A stretch of DNA of 64,000 bases from Sphagnum magellanicum (taxonomy: Eukaryota; Streptophyta; Sphagnopsida; Sphagnales; Sphagnaceae): positions 1 through 64,000 of the forward strand of contig CM038913.1 of NCBI GenBank assembly GCA_021904315.1, in the 5' to 3' direction. Positions 9,605 to 46,022 of this stretch are shown here, one piece after another. Made by a program: the position numbers and the translations under genes. The notes under the pieces were generated by a model. The model was not told the DNA's origin and did no database searches. It was given only the letters and a program-made list of their open reading frames with translations. Within the stretch, counting starts at the first letter, position 1. The number at the start of each line of letters is the position of its first letter.

Positions 9605-10421
9605 GTTTTAGTTTTTTTTAGAAACTTTTAACTTTTTTTATTTTTTTATTTTTATGTGTTTTCTATTTTTATTATTATTTTGTGATCATCTAGCCGGACG
9701 GACATTTCATCCATCCCCTTAATCGGGACGGACAATAGCTAAAAGAAAAAAAAACTTCCCCTAAATCCATCCCGTCATCAAGCCGGACGAACATTTCATC
9801 CATCCCCTTAATTGGGACGGACAGTAGGTAAAAGAATAAAAAGGTAGTCTTGGTCAATACGAAAAAAGAAAAAAATTGATTCTGGGCTGTCCAAGGCCTA
9901 AATATATTTTTTCTGGTCTTCCCCTAAATCTGTCCCGTCATCAAGCCGGACGAACATTTCATCCATCCCCTTAATTAAGACGGACAGTAGGTAAAAGAAT
10001 AAAAAGGTAGTCTTGGTCAATACGAAAAAAGAAAAAAATTGATTCTGGGCTGTCCAAGGCCTAAATATATTTTTTCTGGTCTTCCCCTAAATCTGTCCCG
10101 TCATCAAGCCGGACGAACATATCATCCATCCCCTTAATTAAGACGGACAGTAGCTAAAAAAAAAAAAAAGGTAGTCTTGGTCAATACAAAAAAATAATAA
10201 TAATAAATTGATTCTGGGCTGTCCAAGGCCTAAATTTTTTTTTTCTGGTCTTCCCCTAAATCCGTCCCGTCATCAAGCCGGACGGACATTTCATCCGTCC
10301 CCTTAATCGGGACGGACAGTAGCTAAAAGAAAAAAAAGGTAGTCTTGGTCAATACAAAAAAAAAAAAAAAAAAAAAAGATTCTGGGCTGTCCAGTTTTAG
10401 TTTTTTTTAGAAACTTTTAAC
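9605..10421 (+). repeat. Four-and-a-half-copy ~165-bp tandem array
   Basis: CTTCCCCTAAATC starts at 9755, 9918, 10081 and 10250, giving periods of 163, 163 and 169 bases; a partial unit precedes the first. Each unit contains CCGTCATCAAGCCGGACG, then TCCRTCCCCTTAATCGGGAC, an internal inverted repeat (TCCGTCCC / GGGACGGA), then a poly-A tract and GATTCTGGGCTGTCC. The array is bracketed by a direct repeat of about 28 bases (GTTTTAG, eight T, then AGAAACTTTTAAC) at 9605-9632 and 10394-10421. The last unit keeps CG where earlier units often have CA or TG. There is no coding content. Confidence 0.85.
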
Positions 10422-12891: not shown

Positions 12892-14714
12892 ATGCTGGGA
12901 AACCATGGCGTTGGGCAGGTGGTGCGTGTGGCACAGGACCGCAGTGGACACTACCTGACAGTGCAGGCAGCGATCGACGCGGTTCCGCTCTGCAATACGC
13001 AGCGAGTTGTCATCAGCATTGCCGCTGGAGTGTACCGACAGCCAATTTACGTCCCCAAGACCAAGAATCTGATCACGTTGCAGGTAAAAAGGGGTCTGGA
13101 CCGTCGCTGGGGTGTGGGTATCTTGGTCAACAGTTGCCAAGCAGCCTTGGTTGTCGTCAGAAAAGCTTCATTGTCTCCGTTTGTGTAAGCCGGTTCTGGA
13201 TTCAAACTGCAGCAGGCCTTTGTGCTGAATCTTGAACAGGGAGCTTTATTCCAGTTACAATAAAAATCGGGTTTGAAAGTTGAAGGAAATGTGTAAATCC
13301 CACCTTTGCAGTAGGAAAGTCGCCCTATGAGTCGTGAAGACAGCTCTCAGTCATGCGTTGATGGTAGAATAAGGAATTCTTTCTTTCTTGCCTTGGGGAT
13401 TAGGGTTTCATAACTGCAGATTTGCAGGTGTGATTCTTCCTCTTGTAAAGAAGAATGGCATTCTGTACCCTGACGATCCTGAGTGAATTTTGTTCCCCAC
13501 CCTTGGAGCTCCTGCCTTGTAGGATGTGTACACCTTTCTTAAAGGCCATAAGCAGGGCAATGTGGCTCACCAAGTCAAGGAGTTGAAGTCTTCAGTTCCC
13601 AGTTGGTTAATTATGATGTGCATTGCATTTTCTGGTTTGAGTCTTTGCATTGGCTGCAGCTGAATCTTAAACTTTATGGAGGTCCAATGCTGCCCAAGTG
13701 CACAAGACATGAATATGACATCTTGAGTCTTTCATGTCCAGATCATGTACTAGTACATGCTTGGATCTGTACCATGGTTCTAGAGATAGCCTGAACCAGT
13801 GGAATGACTCAAAATGAGAGTGAATGCACACTATGATCATTTGATCATATTTTGTGTGCAAGTTCATGGCACATGTGAAAGTTTGGGCTTTTGAGTCTTT
13901 GGACCTGGTGGAAGTGCAGGGAGCAAATGCACATGACACGATTCTTACATGGAGCAACACTGCTACAAACATTGAGCATCACCAGGCATCACGAGTGATT
14001 GGGACAGGGACGTTTGCCTGTGGCTCAGTGATTGTGGAGGGTGAGGATTTTATAGCTCAAGGACTCACATTTGAAAATGGTGCACCACAAGGATCAGGTC
14101 AAGCAGTGGCCATCAGAGTAACTGCAGATCGGTGTGCATTCTATAACTGTCGGTTTTTGGGATGGCAGGATACTGCTTATCTGCACTATGGCAGGCACTA
14201 CTTCAGAGACTGTTACATTGAGGGAAGTGTAGATTTCATCTTTGGGAATGGGCAAGTGCTGTTGGAGCACTGCCATATCCACTGCAAGTCTAATGGCTTT
14301 ATCACAGCGCAGCAGCGCCGCAATGCAAATGAGACCACAGGCTTTGTGTTTTTGACATGTGTGATTACAGGCACTGGCAGTGGTGCTCCGTACATGCATC
14401 TTGGCCGGCCATGGGCACCATGTGCACGAGTCATTTTTGCTTACACTTGGATGGATACTTGCATTCTGCCTGTGGGTTGGAACAACTGGAATGACAGAGC
14501 CAATGAGAAAACAGCATGCTACATAGAGTACAAGTGCTCAGGGCCTGGAAGCAACAAATCTCAGCGTTGTTCATGGGCTCGCCAATTGCAAGATTCTGAT
14601 GCTGCTCAATTTCTATCACCAGATTTCATTGATCCACAGCAATCATGGTTGACGCAGCGATTCAAAGATGCTCCTCCCTATGTGCCTGTTCCATTGTCAG
14701 CAAGAGCGTTATGA
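12892..14714 (+). CDS. PME31: Pectinesterase (pectin methylesterase), PME31-like, two exons
   Basis: Pectin methylesterases remove methyl esters from homogalacturonan, usually in the cell wall. Exons are 12892-13083 and 13920-14714, joined in phase 0 across an 836-bp intron (CAG|GTAAAA to GTGCAG|G), giving 328 residues. The first in-frame ATG is 12892; the frame stays open upstream but only through a CTG-repeat leucine run without an ATG. Family residues are all present: GVYRQPIYVPK; QAVAIR (Gln125); GWQDTAY (Gln147, Asp148); VDFIFGN (Asp169); LGRPW (Arg227, Trp229). IEHHQASRVIGTGTF and IRVTADRCAFYNCRFLGWQD closely recall Arabidopsis PME31, which also lacks the inhibitor-like pro-region. No clear signal peptide follows the chosen start; if a non-ATG or upstream-exon start is used, a hydrophobic leader would be added. 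It converges on the exonuclease gene. It looks intact. Confidence 0.9.
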
Positions 14715-32079: not shown

Positions 32080-32866
32080 ATAATCTCACTTTGGGAATTA
32101 GAGTCCCGATGGACTCTTAAATCTTCAAAAGGTGATTGCAGGGGTCAAAACCCATTGAATTGAAGAGTTTTTTATATCATTGATAATATCTTGAGATTTA
32201 AATGTTTAAAATGTGCTTGCATGACCCATTTGGGTACTTAAAACATAAATTATAGCCAAAAGAAAGGCTAGAAGTCAAATTGTCAATTTGACTTCCAATG
32301 ATTAAAAGTTAGGAATCGCTTTTATTCACTTGTGTGCAAGTGGTGTGTCACATATTGTTGGAAATAAATTAACCAAGGCTACAACTTTGCTTGAAACTTC
32401 ACCTTAATTGGAGGTTTGCATAAGAAGTTATGGGCTTCCAAAGTTGTGAAAGTTTCAATTTTGGAAATTTTGGGACTCTCAACTTGGGAGTCTTGGCACA
32501 AAATGACATTTGGGTGCTGACCTTGTGGCCAGGCACAAAAAATATTATAAGGGGGAAGGTGGTGGCTTCCCCCAAGTTCAAGCCATGGTGAGTCTTATGA
32601 ATTCGTGTTTGCTCGTGTTTTGTATGTGCATCAAAAGTGCTTCAACTACACATTAATCAACTTGTTGTTTGGTTTATGCAAGTTTGTGTGAATAATTGAC
32701 CCATTTGTCATTTGTCATAGTCCCCATCCTAAAACTCCAGCACGCCCCTCTACCATCAAAGTGCTATGAGCCAAGGAGCATACCCCAACTTCTCAAACTT
32801 TTGTTGTTTCCACCTGGGAACTCATAGTTGAATCTTTCAAGGAATTTGGGGGTGTGTCAAAGGTAG
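32080..32866 (+). repeat. Dispersed repeat, copy 2
   Basis: This copy is collinear with copies 1 and 3: the AAGTCAAATTGTCAATTTGACTT palindrome near 32273, the GGGGGAAG / CTTCCCCC stem near 32550, GTGGTGAGTCTTATG, an ACGCCCCTCTACC phrase near 32742 and the closing TTGAATCTTTCAAGGA near 32835. Most CG dinucleotides of copy 1 are TG or CA here. Its right end abuts the first LRR-array unit with no detectable spacer. It has no protein frame. Confidence 0.75.
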
Positions 32867-35800
32867 TCAATTTATCAATAGATGTAAGTAACTCCTTCAA
32901 CTATGAGCACTTTAACAAATCTAACTTTTCAAGGGCAATGAATTCATCAATAGATGTAAGTAATTCTTTCACCTATGAACATCCTAACAAATTCAAATAT
33001 TGAAGAGTATTTAATTTGTCAATAGATGTGGGGAACTCCTTCCACTAGAAGCAATTCAACAAATTTACATGAACAATCAATTTGTCAATACATGTAAATA
33101 ATTCTTTCAATTAGGAGCAATATGAGAAATGCAAATATTAAAAGTAGTTAATTTATAATATATGTAAGCAACTTTTTCAACTTTGAGCACTTTGACAAAT
33201 CCAACTTTTTAGGGGTAGTTGGTTTATCAATAGATATAGGTAATTCTTTCACTTATGAGCATGCTAACAAATATACATATTGAAAGGCAATCCATTTGTC
33301 AATACATGTAGGTAATTCCTTCATCTATGAACAATTTGACAAATTCAACTCTACATAAACAATCAATTTGTTAATAGATGTAGGTAATTCCTTCAATTAC
33401 AAGCACCCTGACAAATTTAATTTTTCAAGGCTAGTCAATTTATACATAGATGTAAGTAACTCCTTCAACTACAAGCTCCTTGACAAATGCAAAGATCGAA
33501 GGGCATCCAATTTGTCAATAGAAGTAGGTAATTTCTTCAACTGTAAGCACCCTAACAAATGTAACAATTCAAGGGCAGTCAACTTGTCAATAAATGTGGG
33601 AAATTCCTTCAACTACGAGCATTGTGACAAATTCGAAAATCAAAGAGAAGTTAATTTGTCAATAGATGTAGGTAATTCCTTCAACTGTGAGCACCTTGAT
33701 AAATATAACTTTTTCAAGGCTAGTCAATTTGTTAATAGATGTAAGTAACTCCTTCAACTATGAGCACCATGACAACTGTAACAATCGAAGGGCAGTCAAA
33801 TTATCAATAGATGTAAATAACTCTTTCAACTATAAGCACCCTCACAAATCCAACTTTTCAAGGCTAGTTAAATGGTTAATAGATGTAAATAACTCCTTTA
33901 ACCGCGAGCATTGTGACAAATTCAAGGTTTGAAGGGTAGTTAATTTGTCAATCGATGTAAGTAACTCCTTCAACTGTGAGCACCCTGAAAAATCCAACTT
34001 TTCAAGGCTAGTCAATTTGTCAATAAATGTAGGTAGCTCCTTCAACTATAAACACCCTAACAAATTCAAGGATTGAAGGACAGTCAATTTGTCAATACAT
34101 GTAGGTAACTCTTTCAACTCCTAGCACCTTGACAAAGTCAACTTTTGAAGGCCAATCAATTTGTCAATAGGTGTAAAGAACTCCTTCAATTGTGAGCACC
34201 CTAATAAATACAACATTTCATGGTAATCAATTTGTTAATAAATGTAGGTAACTCCTTCAACTTCAAACACTTTGACAAATGCAATAATTGAAAGGTAGTC
34301 AAATTATTGATAAATGTAGGTAACTCCAACTGTGAGCACCTTGACAAATCCAACTTTTCAAGGTTAGTCAATTTGTCAATAGATGTAGCGAATTCCTTCA
34401 ACTATGAGCACCCTCACAAACCTAACACTTGAAGGGTAGTTAATTTGTTAATAGATGTAGGTAACTCCTTCAACTCCAAGCATCATAATAAATCCAACTT
34501 TTCAAGGCCAGTCAATTTGTTTATAGATGTAGGTAACTCCTTCAACCGCAAGCACATTCACAATTGTAATTCATTAAGGCTAGTCAATCTGTCAATAGAA
34601 GTAGGTAATTCCCTCAACTTCGAATGCCCTAACAAATTCAAGGATTGAAAGGTGGTCAATTTGTTAATAGATGTAGCTAACTCCTTCAATTCTGAGCACC
34701 CTAACAAATTTAATAATCGAAGGGCAATCAATTTGTCAATAAATATAGGTAATTCCTCCAACTTCGAGCACCTTAACAAATCCAACTTTTCAAAGCTAAT
34801 AAATTTGTCGATAGATGTAAATAACTCCTTCAACTCCAAGCACCTAAATAAATCCAAGGATTGAAGGGTAGTCAATTTGTCAATAGATGTAGGTAATTCC
34901 TTCAACTTCGAGCATCTTGATAAATCCAACTTTTCAAGGCTAATCAATTTGTCTATAGATGTAGGTAACTCCTTCAACTGCGAGCACCTTGACAATTGCA
35001 ACTCGTTAAGGCTAGTCAAGTTTGTCAATAGAGGTAGGTAATTCTTTCAATTATGAGCACCTTGACAAATCTAATAATTGAAGGGTAATTAATTTGTCAA
35101 TAGATGTAGGTAACTCCTTCAACTCCGAGCACTTTGACAAATGCAACAATCAAAGGATAATCAATTTGTCAATAGATGTAGGTAACTCCTTCAACTTCGA
35201 GCACCTTGACAAATTCAACAATTGAAGGGTAGTCAATTTGTCAATAGATGTAAGTAACTCCTTTAACTCCGAACATCCTAACAAATTCAACAATCGAAAG
35301 GTAATCAATTTGTCAATAGATGTAAGTAACTCCTTCAACTTCGAGCACCTTGACAAATGTAACAATCGAAGGCTTGTCAATTTGTCAATAGATGTAGGTA
35401 ATTCCTTCAACTCTGAACACCCTGATAAATTCAACATTTGAAGGGTAATCAATTTGTCAATAGATGTAGGTAACTCCTTCAACTATGAGCACCTTCACAA
35501 CTGCAACAATCGAAGGACAGTTAATTTGTCAATAGATGTGAGTAACTCCTTAAACTCCTAGCACTTTAACAAATCCAAGGAATGAAGGGTAGTCAATTTG
35601 TGGATAGATGTAGGTAATTCTTTCAACTCCGAGCACCTTGATAAATCCAAGGATTAGAGGGTAGTCAATTTATCACTAAATGTAGGTAACTCCTTGCCCT
35701 ATGACCACCCTGACAAATCCAAGGATTGAAGGGTAGTTAATTTGTCAATAGATGTAGGTAATTCCTTGAACTCTGACCACCCTGACAAATCCAAGGATTG

Positions 35801-38800
35801 AAGGGCAGTCAATTTGTCAATAGATGTAAGTGATTCCTTGAACTCCGAACACCCTGACAAATCCAAGGATTGAAGGGCAATAAAATTATCAATAGATGTA
35901 GGTAATTCCTTCAACTGCAAGCATTCTAACAAATTCAATGATTGAAGGGCAGTTAATTTGTCAACAGATGTGAGGTATTCCTTCAACTCCAAACACCCTG
36001 TCAAATCCAAAGATTTGAAGGGCAGTCAATTTGTTAACAGATGTGGGTAACTCCTCTAACTCCCAACACCCTGACAAATACAATTTTTTAAGGCTGGTCA
36101 ATTTATCAATAGATGTAGGTAACTCCTTCAATTCGAAGCCCTTTGACAAATTCAATGTTTGAAGGGCAATCAATTTATCAATGGATGTAGGTAACTCCTT
36201 CAACTTCGAACACCTTGACAAATTCAATGATTGAAGGGCAGTTAATTTGTCAATAGATGTAGGTAACTCTTTCAACTTCGAACACCCTGACAAATCCAAT
36301 GATTGAAGGGCAGTCAATTTGTCAATAGATGTAGGTAACTCATTCAACTCCAAACACCCTCACAAATCCAATGATTAAAGGGTAGTCAATTTGTCAATAG
36401 ATGTCGGTAACTCCTTCAACTCCGAAAACCCTTACAAATCTAACTCTTGAGGTGCAATCAATTTGTCAATAGATGTAGGTAACTATTTCAACTCCGGACA
36501 CCCTCACAAATCCAATGATTGAAGGGCAGTCAATTTGTCAATAGATGTAGGTAACTCCTTCAACTCCGAACACCATGACAAATCCAATGATTGAAGGGCA
36601 GTCAATTTGTCAATAGATGTAGGTAACTCCTTCAACTCCGAACACCGTGACAAATTCAATGATTGAAGGGCAGTCAATTTGTCAATAGATGTAGGTAACT
36701 CCTTCAACTCCGAACACCCAGACAAATCCAATGATTGAAGGGCAGTCAATTTGTCAATAGATGTAGGTAACTCCTTCAACTTCGAACACCCTGACAAATT
36801 CAATGATTGAAGGGCAGTCAATTTGTCAATAGATGTAGGTAACTCCTTCAACTCCCAACACCCTCACAAATCCAATGATTGAAGGGTAGTCAATTTGTCA
36901 ATAGATGTAGGTAACTCCTTCAACTCCGAAAACCCTTACAAATCTAACTCTTGAGGTGCAATCAATTTGTCAATAGATGTAGGTAACTCCTTCAACTCCG
37001 AACACCCTAACAAATCCAATCATTGAAGGGCAGTCAATTTGTCAACAAATGTAGGTAACTCCTTCAACTTTGACAACCCTCACAAATCTAACTCTTGAGG
37101 TGCAATCAATTTGTCAATAGATGTAGGTAACTACTTCAACTCCGAACACCCTGACAAATCCAATGATTGAAGGGCAGTCAATTTGTCAATAGATGTAGGT
37201 AACTCCTTCAACTTCGAACACCGTGACAAATTCAATGATTGAAGGGCAGTCAATTTGTCAATAGATGTAGGTAACTCCTTCAACTCCGAACACCCTCATA
37301 AATTCAATGATTGAAGGGCAGTCAATTTGTCAATAGATGTAGGTAACTCCTTCAACTTCGAACACCGTGACAAATTCAATGATTGAAGGGCAGTCAATTT
37401 GTCAATAGATGTAGGTAACTCCTTCAACTCCCAACACCCTCACAAATCCAATGATTGAAGGGTAGTCAATTTGTCAATAGATGAATGTAACTCCTTCAAC
37501 TCCGAAAACCCTTACAAATCTAACTCTTGAGGTGCAATCAATTTGTCAATAGATGTAGGTAACTACTTCAACTTCGAACACCCTCACAAATCCAATGATT
37601 GAAGGGCAGTCAATTTGTCAATAGATGTAGGTAACTCCTTCAATTCCGAACACCATGACAAATTCAAGGATTGAAGGGCAGTCAATTTGTCAATAGATGT
37701 AGGTAACTCCTTCAACTCCGAACACCCTGACAAATCCAACGATTGAAGGGCAGTCAATTTGTCAATAGATGTAAGTAACTCCTTCACCTCCAAACACCCT
37801 GACAAATTCAATGTTTGAAGGGTAGTCAATTTGTCAATAGATGTAGGTAACTCCTTCAATAGGGAGCACGCTGACAAATTCAATGATTGAAGGGTAGTCA
37901 ATTTGTCAATAGATGTAGATAACTCCTTCAACTTCGAACACCCTGACAAATTCAATGATTGAAGGGCAGTCAATTTGTCAATAGATGTAGGTAACTCCTT
38001 CAACTCCGAACACCCTGACAAATTCAATGATTGAAGGGTAGTCAATTTGTCAATAGATGTAGGTAACTCCTTCAACTTCGAACACCATGACAAATGCAAT
38101 GATTGAAGGGCAGTCAATTTGTCAATAGATGTAGGTAACTCCTTCAACTCCGAACACCCTGACAAATCCAATCATTGAAGGGCAGTCAATTTGTCAATAG
38201 ATGTAGGTAACTCCTTCAACTCCGAACACCATGACAAATCCAATGATTGAAGGGCAGTCAATTTGTCAATAGATGTAGATAACTCCTTCAACTCCGGACA
38301 CCCTCACAAATCCAATGATTGAAGGGCAGTCAATTTGTCAATAGATGTACGTAACTCCTTCAACTTCGAACACCGTGACAAATTCAATGATTGAAGGGCA
38401 GTCAATTTGTCAATAGATGTAGGTAACTCCTTCAACTCCGAACACCATGACAAATCCAATGATTGAAGGGCAGTCAATTTGTCAATAGATGTAGATAACT
38501 CCTTCTACTTCGAACACCCTGACAAATTCAATGATTGAAGGGCAATCAATTTGTCAATAGATGTAGGTAACTCCTTCAACTCCGAACACCATAACAAATT
38601 CAATGATTGAAGGGTAGTCAATTTGTCAATAGATGTAGGTAACTCCTTCAACTGCGAACACCCTGACAAATTCAATGATTGAAGGGCAGTCAATTTGTGA
38701 ATAGATGTAGGTAACTCCTTCAACTCCGAACACCCTCACAAATTCAATGATTGAAGGGCAGTTAATTTGTCAATAGATGTAGGTAACTCCTTCAACTCCG

Positions 38801-39167
38801 AACACCCTGACAAATCCAATGATTGAAGGGCAGTCAATTTGTCAATAGATGTAAGTAACTCCTTCTACTTCGAACACCCTGACAAATTCAATGATTGAAG
38901 GGCAATCAATTTGTCAATAGATGTAGGTAACTCCTTCAACTCCGAACACCCTGACAAATCCAATCATTGAAGGGCAGTCAATTTGTCAATAGATGTAGGT
39001 AACTCCTTCAACTCCGAACACCATGACAAATCCAATGATTGAAGGGCAGTCAATTTGTCAATAGATGTAGGTAACTCCTTCTACTTTGAACACCCTGACA
39101 AATTCAATGATTGAAGGGCAGTTAATTTGTCAATAGATGTAGGTAACTCCTTCAACTCCGAACACCA
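32867..39167 (-). pseudogene. Distal, stop-ridden LRR units beyond the HNL stop codon
   Basis: This part is collinear with the coding LRRs but cannot be translated through. Many units carry TTG-TGA in place of TTG-TCA (plus strand CCTCACAAA in place of CCTGACAAA, for example near 36360, 36504, 36856, 37079, 37440, 37580, 38306 and 38726). Three carry TTG-TAA (36431, 36935, 37511). Open stretches of 60-195 codons remain between stops. No C-terminal domain is seen at the far end, which abuts dispersed repeat copy 2. It could be a transcribed 3' untranslated region, a decaying former coding region or a sequence reservoir. Confidence 0.8.
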
Positions 39168-41490
39168 TCACAAATTCAATGATTGAAGGGCAGTCAATTT
39201 GTCAATAGATGTAGGTAACTCCTTCAACTGCGAACACCCTGACAAATTCAATGATTGAAGGGCAGTCAATTTGTCAATAGATGTAGGTAACTCCTTCAAC
39301 TCCGAACACCGTGACAAATTCAATGATTGAAGGGCAGTCAATTTGTCAATAGATGTCGGTAACTCCTTCAACTCCGAACACCCTGACAAATCCAATGATT
39401 GAAGGGCAGTCAATTTGTCAATAGATGTAGGTAACTCCTTCAACTTCGAACACCCTGACAAATTCAATGATGGAAGGGCAGTTAATTTGTCAATAGATGT
39501 AGGTAACTCCTTCAACTCCGAACAACCTAACAAATTCAATGATTGAAGGGCAGTCAATTTGTCAACAGATGAAGGTAACTCCTTCAACTGCGAACACCAT
39601 GACAAATTCAATGATTGAAGGGCAATCAATTTGTCAATAGATGTAGGTAACGCCTTCAACTCCGAACACCATGACAAATCCAATGATTGAAGGGCAGTCA
39701 ATTTGTCAATAGATGTAGGTAACTCCTTCAACTGCAAACACCCTGACAAATTCAATGATTGAAGGGCAGTCAATTTGTCAACAGATGAAGGTAACTCCTT
39801 CAACTCCGAACACCATGACAAATTCAATGATTGAAGGGTAGTCAATTTGTCAATAGATGTAGGTAACGCCTTCAACTCCAAACACCATGACAAATCCAAT
39901 GATGGAAGGGCAGTCAATTTGTCAATAGATGTAGGTAACTCCTTCAACTTCGAACAACCTAACAAATTCAATGATTGAAGGGCAGTCAATTTGTCAACAG
40001 ATGAAGGTAACTCCTTCAACTGCGAACACCATGACAAATTCAATGATTGAAGGGTAGTCAATTTGTCAATAGATGTAGGTAACTCCTTCAACTGCGAACA
40101 CCGTGACAAATCCAATGATGGAAGGGTAGTCAATTTGTCAATAGATGTAGGTAACTCCTCCAACTTCGAACACCCTGACAAATCCAATGATTGAAGGGCA
40201 ATCAATTTGTCAATAGATGTAGGTAACTCCTTCAACTCCGAACACCCTGACAAATCCAATGATTGAAGGGTAGTCAATTTGTCAATAGATGTAGGTAACT
40301 CCTTCAATAGGGAGCACACTGACAAATTCAATGATTGAAGGGCAGTCAATTTGTCAATAGATGTAGGTAACTCCTTCAACTTCGAACACCCTGACAAATT
40401 CAATGATTGAAGGGCAGTCAATTTGTCAATAGATGTAGGTAACTCCTTTAACTTCGAACACCCTGACAAATTCAATGATTGAAGGGCAGTCAATTTGTCA
40501 ATAGATGTAGGTAACTCCTTCAATTCGAAGCCCTTTGACAAATTCAATGTTTGAAGGGCAATCAATTTGTCAATAGATGTAGGTAACTCCTTCAACTTCG
40601 AACACGCTGACAAATGGAATGATTGAAGGGCAGTAAATTTGTCAATAGATGTAGGTAACTCCTTCAACTCCGAACAACCTAACAAATTCAATGATTGAAG
40701 GGCAGTCAATTTGTCAATAGATGTAGGTAACTCCTTCAACTCCGAACACCATGACAAATCCAATGATTGAAGGGCAGTCAATTTGTCAATAGATGTAGGT
40801 AACTCCTTCAACTCCGAACACCCTGACAAATCCAATGATTGAAGGGAAGTCAATTTGTCAATAGATGTAGGTAACTCCTTCAACTTCGAACACCCTGACA
40901 AATTTAATGATTGAAGGGCACTCAATTTGTCAATAGATGTAGGTAACTCCTTCAACTCCGAACATCCAGACAAATTCAATGATTGAAGGGCAGTCAATTT
41001 GTCAATAGATGTAGGTAACTCCTTGAACTTCGAACACCCTAACAAATCCAACTCTTGAAGCGCAATCAAATTGTTAATAGATGTATGTAATTCCTTCAAC
41101 TCCCAACACCTTGACAAATCTAACTCTCGAAGCGCAATCAATTTGTCAATAGATGTAGGTAACTCCTTTAATTGGAAGCACTCTGACAAATTCAATGATT
41201 GAAGGGCAGTCAATTTGTCAATAGATGTAGGTAACTTTTTTAACTCCGAACACCATGATAAATCCAATGATTGAAGGGAAGTCAATTTGTTAATAGTTGT
41301 AGGTAATTCCTTCAACTGCGAACACCCTGACAAATTCAATGATTGAAGGGCAGTCAATTTGTCAATAGATGTAGGTAACTCCTTCAACTGCGAACACCCT
41401 GACAAATTCAATGATTGAAGGGTAGTCAATTTGTTAATAGATGTAGGTAGTACTTTTAGGTTGATGCATCTTGATAAATCAAGAACATGC
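32867..41490 (-). repeat. ~120-unit array of a 72-bp leucine-rich-repeat unit
   Basis: A 72-bp unit repeats head to tail for about 8.6 kb. Each encodes 24 residues of the type LNLSGCSELKELPTSIDKL followed by TALQS. About 32 units (41490-39168) lie in one open frame as the LRR domain of the HNL gene; about 87 more follow the stop codon. Units between about 36.2 and 41.4 kb are nearly identical; those near 33-35 kb are clearly more diverged and partly frameshifted. Higher-order structure is visible: a three-unit (216-bp) block with GTCAACAGATGAAGG at 39561, 39777 and 39993, and 7- and 8-unit blocks (504 and 576 bp) with CTTACAAATCTAACTCTTGA at 36431, 36935 and 37511. Unequal crossing-over or replication slippage is the expected mechanism. 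Confidence 0.95.
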
Positions 41491-44400
41491 AGGTTGGGAC
41501 AATAACCAAAATTCAATGGCATTTTTTTAATTTTGGCTTCTTGCCAATGTATCCATCGCAATTCATATACATATTGGTCATGTAAAAAACCTTCCACAAT
41601 GTTTGATGAGACTTGAGCCATGTCAAACAACCTTAATTTGGGGAGGTGTACATTCTTGAACATCCCTAAAACCAAATTTTCATTTCCTTTCAATGATAAA
41701 CCTTGTATTCTTGAAGCCACCTATCACATGAAAAATTACAACATATGAGTTTACACATATAACATTTAAATTATGTAATAAAATTAATGCGTTTTTTTAA
41801 TATACAAATTTTAAATTATAGATTTTTAAAAAAAATTGATGTAGTGATGATGACCTTTTGTTCATGCAAAATATGTAAATATGTTTTGGGATCCCATATT
41901 CGATTATTTTCCTCTTGTATTGCAAATTTTCGACCCATATCTCGCAATTGGTCATGCATAAATAAATTTCCATCTTCGTTGATTTTTACAAGAGATCTAA
42001 CTTTTAAGTTTTGCAATTCAAGTGTCGAAGTTTCAGAATCCCATATTTGAAGGGCTGTAATTTCTTTCAAATCACCAAAATAACAAGCAATATCCAAAAA
42101 CATATCCTTTTCTGGTTGGGCTAAATCTCTGTAAGAAATCTCCAAGCTTTGCCAAAGCACACAATTTTTACCCCCATCCAAATTTTCCGCTCTTCGTAAT
42201 TTTTCCAAGGCTCCGTTCCAAATTTGCAATCTTGTTTGCATATTGTAGCTTTGTTTCTTGTGCAAAAAACTACCCATGACTTCAAGGCTCAAAGGAAGAC
42301 CGGCACATGCTTCCACAATCTTCTCAAAAATGTTTTCAAAACCTTTTTCCACTTGTTTTATATTGGGAAATGTATGGGATAAAAAAAGTTCCGTTGCTTG
42401 TTTTTTGTTAAGATATGGCACTTCAAATTTTCCATTTGGATCTAGATGACCCTCTAAGACTCCCCAATTTCGACAAGTCACAATTACATCACTTTTTCTA
42501 TTTTTTCCTTGAAAAGTAAGAACTTTTGATAAATCATCGATAAGCTTTTCATCAACATCATCAATGACCACTAACACTTTCTTGGAAATCATGGTCTCCT
42601 TAATACGCTTAAGATCATCACCATTCACAACTTCCACGCCATTTTTTTTCCGGCAACACAAATCTTGTAGAAGTTGTTTTTTCAAATTTTCAATATTTTT
42701 TGATTTCACATCTGCCAAGAAACTAGATTTATCATATTGCTCATGGAACAAATGGTATATCTTTTTGCTCAAAGTTGTCTTTCCAATACCCCCCATTCCA
42801 ACCAAACCAATAATAGATACCTTTTGTAACAATTTATAAGTCTCCTTTGCTTTTTCTTCTAAGCTCACCTCCCATGATGGTAGTGATGGAAGTTGTCGTG
42901 GATTCTGTTGTGATTCATGCAAATCTTATATTAATATTTTGATTGAAAGAAATATATGCCATATAATAATTATTTAAAATACATTAATTTTATTTTTTGT
43001 TAAGAATATATAAATTATAAAAGTCCCATGTTATTACATCATACGTCTTGATGACAATTTAATATCTTATCAACTTAGTATATTTGAAGTGAACACAAAT
43101 CAATGTTATGAATTAACAAAAAAAATTAAATTGAGTTTTTGTCACTTATACGTTCAATGTTAAATTTTACAAAAGTGTTATGAACACAACTTCCCAAGGT
43201 TGTCATGGCATTATTAAGTTCGTCATAACATGACATGCCATTTTGAACATTAACACAACCTAATGTCATATCAAAATAGGATGAACTTAGGTGAACTTAG
43301 GGTTAACTTGAATCAAAACCTTGATAAGGTTGTCAAGGGCAAGGGTTTAATCGGGAAAAAAATCTATGACAAGTGAAACGATGACAAAAAATGGGAAATA
43401 TTCAAGTGATAAAAAATGACAAAAATTTAAGCAACTAAATTTTTTTGGTTTTTTTTTTTACTTCTAGGTGACCAAAAGAATTTTGGTTACCAAATCAATG
43501 GTGAGGATCAACCTTGCCATTGATTGGATGATTGAAAATTAGTCAATGACAATTTAAAGAAAAAACATTTATCATTTAGTAATTAAAAGTTCAATTGAAT
43601 GACCAAAAATTGAAATTCAATAAATAATATATATATTTTTTCCAATCACTTGGTCAAAGAATTAAAAAATGAATGATCATAAAATTTTGGTCACAAAATC
43701 AATGTTGTAGATCAATTCATTGACGATTGAACATTTCAAATAGATTGCTAGTTTTGTTTCTAGTTGTTATTAATTGGTTTTGGTTGCTTTAGTGATTTTT
43801 GGTTGCTAATGAATTGGCAACCAATTTTTTAAAATAATTTTTTTTCCGTCAACCAATTTTGATTGTTTAATCAACAATAAGGTTTATTTCCACCATTGAT
43901 TTTACGATTGAGATTTTAATCCCAAAACAAAAATGACTAACTAATTTCGATTGCTCACCTAATTTTTCGATCATTTGATTCTTTTGGTATTAATTATTGT
44001 TTCAATCATAATTTTTGGGGATGAGCATATCACCTTTTCTTGAAAAAGCATTGGGCATTCGACTTGATAGGTGTGTTAGAATTTCATGTGGATATGACAC
44101 TTGATGCAAAATCAACGTGTCATGTGCACTATGACAACCTATAAAATCTTTAAATTTTCCTTTTCATATAATGACTAACTAAAACTTTTGCATTGAAGTT
44201 GATGTCTCACCTTTAAAAAAATATTTAAACAATCCACCAATTTTGAGTAACTTATGTGCTCCCTTGTAGGTGGCTTGCAAATAGTCAAATGATTTGCGTC
44301 TTCAATTTTGTAATAATTATTACCAGATAATCGTTGGGCTGATGCATGTGGAACAAGAATTTCCTGCACATAGTTTAATGAGAATTGAAAATCAAATACA

Positions 44401-46022
44401 AGCTAAACATATTTTCATTGACTTAAAACAAAATTTTGTCAACATATTTTTTTTTCAATTAAAAAAATGTTATGAAAAGCTTAAAACATAAGGACATACA
44501 CACCAATTTCAAGCACATTCATTTGATTAGCTTCAATTCATCACATTTTTACACAAGGCTTGTGTAAAGATCTAAAAGATAAAATTGCAAAAAATTTGAA
44601 TTTCTACAAAAATATCAATATGCATATTTATTGAAGGTCATTGTATTGAAAAATTACCTCATCTTTGTTAATGGGTTGTCCTTCAACAAAAGCATAAATG
44701 TTAAGATTGTCTTTTGATCGATCAAATTCCACAGAAAGTTGTTCCATTTTTTGATCTAAAACTTGAACATTCTTATGTAAGCTTTGTTGTGGTGCTGAGT
44801 GGGTCTTGTTCAAAAAACCCATTTCCTGGCATATTTGTGCAAAATACATTGAAAATGTTTTTGTCCCACCTTCATGTGGAACACCATAGAAAATTACCCC
44901 AATAAGGTTATCATAAAAATCCTTGGATCTTGGATTCATGGCTAAATCCAAATCAGTTGATGTTTTTTGATTCATGCGTTTTTGGATTTCCACCACTAAA
45001 CTTTTGATGATCAAGCCACCAAAGCTATGACCAACCAATACAATTGGAGCACACCAAAGGTTTTCATAGCTGTAGATGCAAACAATATTTATAATTAGAT
45101 TATGTTTCAATGTCATTCTTGTATTTAAACTCCATTTATGGCATAATATAAGGATATTCAAATCTCATAAAAGGTATAAAATGAAATATATTGAAATATG
45201 TGTTATCAATATTTTCTATTAACATATTATCCCAAATTAAAAAAGAATTTTGCAACCTTGATAACTACTATAAATTACTAATGAAAAATATTACGAAATT
45301 TGAAATCCATTGAAGTATGGAAGGTTATGTTAAACACATGTTTAAACATGCAAAACTTTCAAATATTAGAATTGGGAAGGACATTGTTTCACCTTTGATT
45401 CAGCACCAAACTTTCTACAAGGTTCTTCCCAATATCTGTTACATCACCATTGACCCCAAAAATATTGGTATCATATGAAAGAGAAAGGATTTGGATATTT
45501 TCTCCCATGTCCTCAACCAACCATTCTTTTATCCAAAATGTACGGCGATCCTCTCCATTTATGTGGGTAATTGATGTCCATGTTTCTTTCCACGCATTGG
45601 AAATGTCCTTTCTAGAAACAATGCCGTGAAAAAAAATGATGACCAATTTCGGGTGTGTTAAAATGAAATTCGGATACACAATATGAACTGGACTTATCTG
45701 CAATTGACAAGATGATCAATACAACACAATTTGTAAAACATATCAACTTCTCTTTCATAGCTTTCAACCCTAAAACAATTCATCCATTTAGATCAAAATA
45801 ACATCCTACTTTCTAAATGAAAAAAAAATTGTGGTAAAGTCGAATTCACAATATTATATATATATGATACATTTTCATGTTCATAAAAACTCATTGGCAT
45901 AATTAAAAGCCTCATAAAAAGAAAATTGGAAATAAATAAATCTTGCAAACATCCTAAAAAATTTGAGGTCATAAAGGGTCCAAAATAATTACCTTTGGGT
46001 TTTCCAAATGAAACATTTTCAT
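39168..46022 (-). CDS. HNL immune receptor: alpha/beta-hydrolase, NB-ARC, LRR
   Basis: This is an intracellular NLR-type immune receptor. Minus-strand exons are 46022-45993, 45697-45393, 45069-44658, 44363-44211, 42904-41855 and 41720-39168. All junctions are GT..AG and phase-consistent, giving about 1500 residues. Residues ~11-300 form an alpha/beta-hydrolase domain: LVIIFFHGIVSR, nucleophile elbow VGHSFGG (Ser127), GVIFYGVPHEGG, and a late NHLTICKP with candidate catalytic His274. NB-ARC (about 301-650): P-loop GMGGIGKTT (336-344), kinase-2 KVLVVIDDVD (409-418), RNBS-B VIVTCRNW, GLPL as CAGLPLSLEV, RNBS-D FLDIACYF, and MHD at 616-618. A linker (FDMAQV, ELRWIHWQE) precedes about 32 LRRs of 24 residues. 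The ten-codon first exon (ending MFHLENPK) is inferred from an ATG preceded by an in-frame TAA and a good donor; it is the least certain part. The stop (TGA, 39170-39168) lies inside an LRR, so the C terminus ends abruptly in repeats. Confidence 0.85.
42905..44210 (-). other. Intron 4 of the HNL gene
   Basis: This 1306-bp intron separates the hydrolase exons from the NB-ARC exon. It is AT-rich and, around 43440-43960, contains recurring GACCAAAA / TTTTGGTT and CAATTTT / AAAATTG words in both orientations. That is suggestive of a decayed small inverted-repeat element but not clear enough to call. Confidence 0.6.

Follow-up and report, generated by a model that had tools for sequence, protein, structure and literature searches.

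A leucine-rich repeat array of about 119 units that runs on past its stop codon in a predicted hydrolase-NB-ARC receptor gene of Sphagnum magellanicum

Gene model and repeat array

The DNA considered here, referred to as the window, comprises 64,000 nucleotides of the moss Sphagnum magellanicum (GenBank assembly GCA_021904315.1, contig CM038913.1, positions 1 to 64,000). It forms the first 64 kb of contig 7 in the genome that was searched (438,994,042 bases in 31 contigs). The minus strand of the window carries a predicted immune-type receptor gene of the nucleotide-binding leucine-rich repeat (NLR) kind, and the leucine-rich repeat (LRR) exon of this gene sits inside a long minisatellite of its own repeat, as an original prediction made from the bare sequence had recognized. 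The unit of 72 bp encodes a 24-residue plant-type LRR (LPTSIDKLTALQSLNLSGCSELKE) and is present in tandem approximately 119.4 times at 32859-41449. The open reading frame (ORF) takes in 31.7 of these units, and 87.6 units lie behind it.

On its predicted exons, the gene is an alpha/beta-hydrolase-NB-ARC-LRR receptor of the Hyd-NLR/HNL architecture (Table 1). The original prediction had identified the NLR-type LRR exon and had missed both this receptor class and its many sister loci. GT-AG splice signals flank the hydrolase and NB-ARC exons, and the five joined exons give 1490 codons with a sole stop at the end. All three domains of the architecture were found: hydrolase exons A-C, when joined, score 22.4 bits against Pfam DUF676, above its cut-off of 20.3, the NB-ARC exon matches its Pfam model, and the C-terminal repeats match LRR_14 (E 3.1e-97) as well as further LRR models. 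Taken singly, exon B stays under the thresholds of PGAP1 and DUF676 and exons A and C have no Pfam match, and a sequence search of the PDB up to E 1 returned no relatives of the hydrolase. The hydrolase exons recur at paralogous NB-ARC loci of the same genome, where tblastn finds exon A at 15 of 17 loci (46-100% identity, partial in locus L012), exon B at 17 of 17 (partial in locus L011) and exon C at 17 of 17. The sequence-predicted introns between exons B and C, between exon C and the NB-ARC exon, and between the NB-ARC and LRR exons are all in phase 0 and include the conserved introns of HNL genes, and an extra phase-2 intron separates exons A and B. A region of similarity upstream of exon A, shared with loci L009_10 and L015 only, extends through stops and is seen in all forward frames alike, so that it looks non-coding and not like a first exon.

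Table 1. Features of the receptor gene and its repeat array in the window (units are numbered from 0 in the direction of the gene).
Feature	Position	Strand	Remarks
Alpha/beta-hydrolase exon A, 305 nt, ends in phase 2	45393..45697	-	tblastn, splice signals TTGCAG / GTGAAA
Alpha/beta-hydrolase exon B with GHSFGG motif	44658..45069	-	tblastn; DUF676 on joined exons A-C
Alpha/beta-hydrolase exon C, 153 nt	44211..44363	-	tblastn, splice signals
NB-ARC exon	41855..42904	-	Pfam NB-ARC E 6.6e-34; motifs located
Open LRR exon: 90-residue pre-LRR segment and 31.7 LRR units, TGA in unit 31	39168..41720	-	
Stop-free coding units 0-30	39219..41450	-	
Moving block, approximately units 0-72	36195..41450	-	Non-collinear with both near-identical paralogues; units 1-72 91% alike, no indels
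Moving block from the stop onward, units 31-72	36195..39218	-	20 of 42 units with TGA, TAG or TAA, several exact copies
Frameshift/stop, units 75-76, FGFDRVFGVEGIPHIC*	35906..36050	-	Common to L012, where the L012 ORF ends
Frozen tail, units 73-119	32859..36194	-	Units 73-118 ordered as L012 units 23-68

Tandem Repeats Finder (TRF) reports a period of 72 with 119.4 copies at 32865-41449 (84% matches, score 10841), and wrap-around alignment of 32859-41449 gives 120 rows, the last one partial, in which 89.6% of aligned bases agree with the consensus. A 26-bp probe from the unit, allowing up to 3 mismatches, has 104 matches in the window, whereas 100 shuffles gave 0.00 on average. These counts bear out the earlier estimate of about 120 head-to-tail units, of which about 32 lie in the open frame, and the repeats do continue past the stop; up to and including unit 74 the period is unbroken by indels, and from unit 75 onward it is interrupted by small ones. 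The span originally given, 32867-41490, holds except for its upper end, which reaches approximately 40 bases into unique sequence. The description of the units as exact or near-identical was overstated. Coding units 0-30 comprise 31 distinct DNA sequences and 29 distinct proteins, with a mean pairwise identity of 90% for DNA and 80.1% for protein. Mean pairwise DNA identity across units 0-74 is likewise 90%, whether units are compared on one side of the stop or across it, and complete units from 75-76 onward match the consensus at 68-90%. Higher-order repeat structure is faint, with identity flat at 0.90-0.92 at lags of 1-39 and only weak peaks.

Tandem repeats are known to mislead assemblers, which may stretch or mix such an array. 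Here, all 31 coding units differ, and the longest exact repeat across the whole array is 165 bp, so that the large duplicated blocks expected from a mis-stretched assembly are absent. Arrays built in a similar way at other loci and a tail common to three loci, described below, also speak against an artefact, as does the approximately 70x PacBio coverage reported in the available text on the Sphagnum divinum genome, which we infer to be the source (PMC9946827). An artefactual array length is unlikely, and an array stretched or mixed in assembly is considered very improbable.

The first stop is a TGA in unit 31, and the ORF ends at 39168. None of the 31 units before this stop carries a stop codon, compared with 20 of the 44 in units 31-74, where all three types occur at five residue positions. 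If 45 stop-bearing units were placed at random among 120, the probability of finding none in the first 31 would be 2e-8, with units treated as independent. One stop-bearing unit is present in letter-identical form at positions 54, 62 and 69. Other units are identical across the stop (9=33=67 and 14=48=64), which indicates that exchange does not respect the stop codon. The stops might instead be bypassed by splicing, readthrough or editing to yield a receptor with about 75 or more LRRs, in keeping with the single frame that persists without indels through units 31-74. Such a bypass would have to cope with stops in nearly half of these units, of every type and at several positions, and with loss of the frame at unit 75; moreover, ORFs end within the array at most other loci too, which makes a bypass scarcely credible.

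Comparison with duplicate and sister loci

Locus L012 lies 5.7 Mb away on the same contig. Next to its array it is 99.0% identical to the window over 4055 bp on the 5' side and 97.9% identical over 994 bp on the 3' side; judged by these flanks, it is a recent copy of the window gene. Its array has 68.8 units compared with about 119 in the window. The ends of the two arrays are collinear, window units 71-118 corresponding to L012 units 21-68 (48 units in order, 98.05% identity), and of the 46 L012 units 23-68, 45 find their best window match in the unit at the corresponding position, with unit 35 as the exception. The proximal blocks, comprising approximately 73 units in the window and 22 in L012, have no common order. 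The distal border of the moving block is uncertain by about two units (71-73). The L012 ORF ends exactly at the frameshift that it shares with window units 75-76. In a further paralogue, L011 (flanks approximately 96% alike), a collinear tail corresponds to window units 75-118 with a single unit missing (43 of 44), and 33 units lie ahead of it. Because L011 has these 33 proximal units, a gain of units in the window gene appears likelier than a loss in L012. Within the window, moving units are 91% alike with a mean longest exact shared run of 29.5 bp, and tail units (73-117) are 76% alike with a run of 12.3 bp. For the 73 proximal window units, the nearest relative lies in the window array in 57 cases and in L012 in 2, with 14 ties.

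Unit 35 of L012, the exception, stands opposite window unit 85 and agrees letter for letter with window unit 10, and its neighbours keep their partners. This copy of window unit 10 was seen nowhere else in L012 or L011. A single conversion event, possibly between loci, is the likely origin.

The original prediction held that the LRR region behaves like a satellite, which would allow its repeat number to change rapidly by unequal exchange. On such a model, the entire 8.6-kb array would be a uniform minisatellite with turnover from end to end. The same 72-bp period is found throughout, and the number of units does differ strongly among near-identical paralogues. However, gain and loss of units along the whole array were not found at the window locus: the 46-unit tail is ordered as in L012 at flank-level divergence, which contradicts such a model here, and its units are only 76% alike. 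Rapid change in copy number remains a good description of the proximal homogeneous block, which alone appears to turn over and which includes approximately 42 units from the stop onward. Turnover of the whole array is improbable.

Matches to the coding array were found at at least 107 places in the genome, and the NB-ARC exon has at least 113 matches, some of which are fragments of one gene and not all of which have been shown to be of this class. Array matches were grouped by eye into approximately 30 loci, and 20 were analysed, including the window locus; the NB-ARC exon is present at 18 of these and absent at L013 and L014. Arrays of the 18 NB-ARC loci range from 28.6 to 119.3 units, a range that gives no guide to how common long arrays are, as the loci were selected by array match; L029, taken for its NB-ARC match, has an array of only 14.4 units. 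At 17 of the 18 loci the LRR frame closes within the array or ahead of it and leaves 3.3-87.6 units behind; at L018, the exception, the frame spans the whole array. At L011, L015 and L016 the frame ends at once, although at L016 a frame from the array's own start runs for 19.9 units; these three genes may be broken or mis-modelled. At least 25 open units are present at 12 of the 17 other NB-ARC loci. The longest frame, at L024 (2617-9177), has approximately 88 LRR units and 2186 residues in an array 92% identical to its own consensus. The residues at the end of the L024 ORF are nearly the same as in its relative L025, which has about 60 units.

Among paralogues with 5' flanks 95-99% alike, arrays have 120/70/78, 92/65, 48/61/57 and 71/57 unit rows, and one pair is near-equal (58/57). 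Collinear runs between pairs were accepted from a length of 5 units upward where reciprocal best matches made up at least half of the units. Such runs comprise the last 16 units of L024/L025 (97.6/98.5%; 92 vs 65 rows), 12 units near the end of L015/L009_10 (91.2%), 6 units near the end of L022/L023 (96.8%), runs of 8, 18 and 7 units in L020/L021 (96.2%) and a run of 6 in L019/L021 (93.4%). Of 11 loci compared, 10 have frozen stretches whose units resemble one another less than those of the moving stretches do.

Three further observations concern these loci. The ORFs of L009_10, L019, L020, L021, L022 and L029 end just after the Leu at unit position 11, where the next consensus residue is Gln; apparently, a Gln codon was turned into a stop at each. 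L013:4768-9753 (G000:C2:252501-262500) has an ORF of 1661 residues with 38.8 in-frame LRR units of the window type and no NB-ARC match, and its 652-residue C-terminal part has no Pfam match, which suggests that the LRR array sits also in a different kind of protein. L014:4118-5206 (G000:C2:181501-191500) has an N-terminus like that of L013 by eye and approximately 12 open units, with the stop within an array of 17.5 units.

Selection and a possible mechanism

The tails of the window and L012 differ by 52 substitutions in 45 units (unit 85 omitted), of which 30 are non-synonymous, 17 synonymous and 5 stop-related, compared with 33.9, 14.3 and 3.8 expected without constraint at an assumed transition weight of 2.5. 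Continued protein selection on the tail is rejected on this fit to neutrality, and the closeness of the counts to the unconstrained expectation suggests that the tail evolves like unique non-coding DNA. Constraint on ORF units emerges when 14 of the 18 loci are pooled (L011, L015, L016 and L023 left out). The ratio of non-synonymous to synonymous changes (N/S) at scaffold positions is 0.33 in ORF units vs 0.77 beyond (p 3e-9) and at exposed positions 4.01 vs 3.09 (p 0.002), with p-values that are too strong, as the units share ancestry. The scaffold and exposed classes of positions in the 24-residue unit follow general LRR structure.

The reading that we prefer, with a probability of roughly 0.7, is an array of two compartments, in which a proximal block exchanges units, a diverged distal tail is frozen and the stop codon sets the end of the protein. 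Proximal units, being approximately 91% alike, would be added, deleted and shuffled by unequal exchange and/or gene conversion, and this turnover would alter the length and surface of the LRR solenoid of the receptor. A chance nonsense mutation would fix the end of the protein; selection would purge stops solely upstream of the current C-terminus, and units beyond it would gather them. Post-stop units would keep exchanging with coding units while they are similar enough. For distal units, which have diverged to 76% alike, exchange would have practically ceased through this loss of similarity, leaving them as neutrally decaying fossils. The ORF is presumed to be expressed, and its LRR domain may sense pathogens.

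Several observations weigh against this reading. The Fisher p of 2e-6 for the difference in stop-bearing units before and after the stop is overstated, as units are related by copying and are not independent. Among the 22 proximal units of L012, 8 are nearer to units within L012, 3 are nearer to the window and 11 are ties. L020 breaks the rule that frozen stretches are less self-similar (0.789 vs 0.784), and its partner L021 follows it weakly. Neither L016/L027 (96.8/91.9%) nor the remaining pairs above 80% have a collinear run. No first coding exon was found upstream of exon A. In the window gene alone, scaffold positions have 7 non-synonymous and 10 synonymous changes before the stop and 48 and 71 after it, and N/S relative to expectation is 1.37 in units 0-30 vs 1.41 in units 31-74. 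The lack of stronger constraint before the stop in the window gene would be compatible with truncation in the recent past or with relaxed selection.

This last result also favours a dying pseudogene, in which nonsense mutations cut a former LRR domain of approximately 75 units and selection has gone. The exact in-frame period to unit 74, with stops only past unit 30, and the lack of any further domain ahead of the stop are in line with such a history. However, hydrolase, NB-ARC and 31 LRR units remain stop-free over the 1490 codons, the chance of a stop-free start calculated above (under independence of units) is minute, and 12 of 17 other NB-ARC loci also keep long open arrays. A pseudogene is therefore regarded as rather unlikely.

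An extension of the two-compartment reading is more speculative. Post-stop units could form a built-in reservoir, mutating freely out of selection and being copied into the coding block by conversion or unequal exchange; this is doubtful at present, at odds of about one in several. If true, each gene would have its own donor library of LRR modules, and nonsense codons would mark a shifting border between repeats that are expressed and repeats that are stored. The arrangement would be a germline analogue of the cassettes of lamprey variable lymphocyte receptors, which are assembled in somatic cells. The likeness is that LRR modules beside the coding unit could act as donors; the difference is that the lamprey genes are assembled somatically, whereas one assembled genome is seen here.

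Relation to known receptors and neighbouring features

Change in the number and make-up of LRRs in plant NLRs has mostly been inferred from divergent alleles. The window gene has its own neutral control, the tail, beside the evolving part, and its near-identical duplicate differs by approximately 50 units, which makes it possible to measure how much similarity exchange needs, how fast LRRs turn over and how selection acts on exposed residues. Many relatives are available for such work: the genome has at least 113 NB-ARC matches, not all of which are known to belong to this class, and LRR ORFs reach 88 units (2186 aa).

The HNL or Hyd-NLR architecture was named in Marchantia, and the available part of that paper holds the class to be liverwort-specific and describes two phase 0 introns, one within the hydrolase and one separating it from NB-ARC, with another intron behind NB-ARC (PMC3352924). 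Hydrolase-NLRs in Sphagnum are placed, in the accessible text of a later study, as minor subclades inside the CC/RPW8 clade (PMC11218826). The window gene resembles HNL genes so described in domain order and in having introns at all three sites described for Marchantia, the first two in phase 0. It differs in its one extra phase-2 hydrolase intron and, together with its sister loci, in arrays of 28.6-119.3 units, mostly with post-stop tails, which the available portions of these two papers do not mention (PMC3352924; PMC11218826).

Closer parallels to the array are found in fungi. The HNWD genes of Podospora anserina (het-d, het-e, het-r) encode NLRs with highly similar WD40 repeats (PMC2873952; PMC12222747). 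As described in the parts available, they share with the window gene an NLR-like receptor whose repeat number and order are altered by recombination or conversion, and some HNWD alleles have stop-bearing repeats. In contrast, they are fungal, have WD40 repeats rather than LRRs, and have approximately 10-12 repeats in reported active alleles; a long frozen post-stop tail is not reported for HNWD in the same portions (PMC2873952; PMC12222747). Fungal NLRs with ANK, TPR and WD repeats of high internal conservation, for which concerted evolution has been proposed, are similar in having internally alike repeats in immune-type receptors (PMC4986451, available text). High internal conservation is defined there as above 85% over at least 100 residues. 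Units 0-30 lie below this at 80.1%, and 34% of pairs reach 85%, by our own pairwise measure rather than the published program.

Reshuffling of repeat arrays in NLR-like receptors by recombination is known already from the consulted parts of these studies (PMC2873952; PMC12222747; PMC4986451), and the present locus extends to plant LRRs a principle familiar from the fungal HNWD receptors. New, as far as searched, are a plant LRR version of up to 119 units, a frozen post-stop tail beside a moving block, and recurrence at sister loci. No plant NLR with LRR arrays of this kind was evident by title or start of abstract among the papers listed, in which subscription journals are poorly covered. A word search of the available main text of the Sphagnum divinum genome paper found no occurrence of NLR, LRR, leucine-rich or disease resistance (PMC9946827).

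Two other features were observed in the window. A separate tandem repeat at 9755-10370 has a 163-bp unit in 3.7 copies with 92% matches, and its TRF consensus is unlike the LRR array. A pectinesterase ORF is present on the plus strand at 13854-14714 (Pfam E 8.2e-60).

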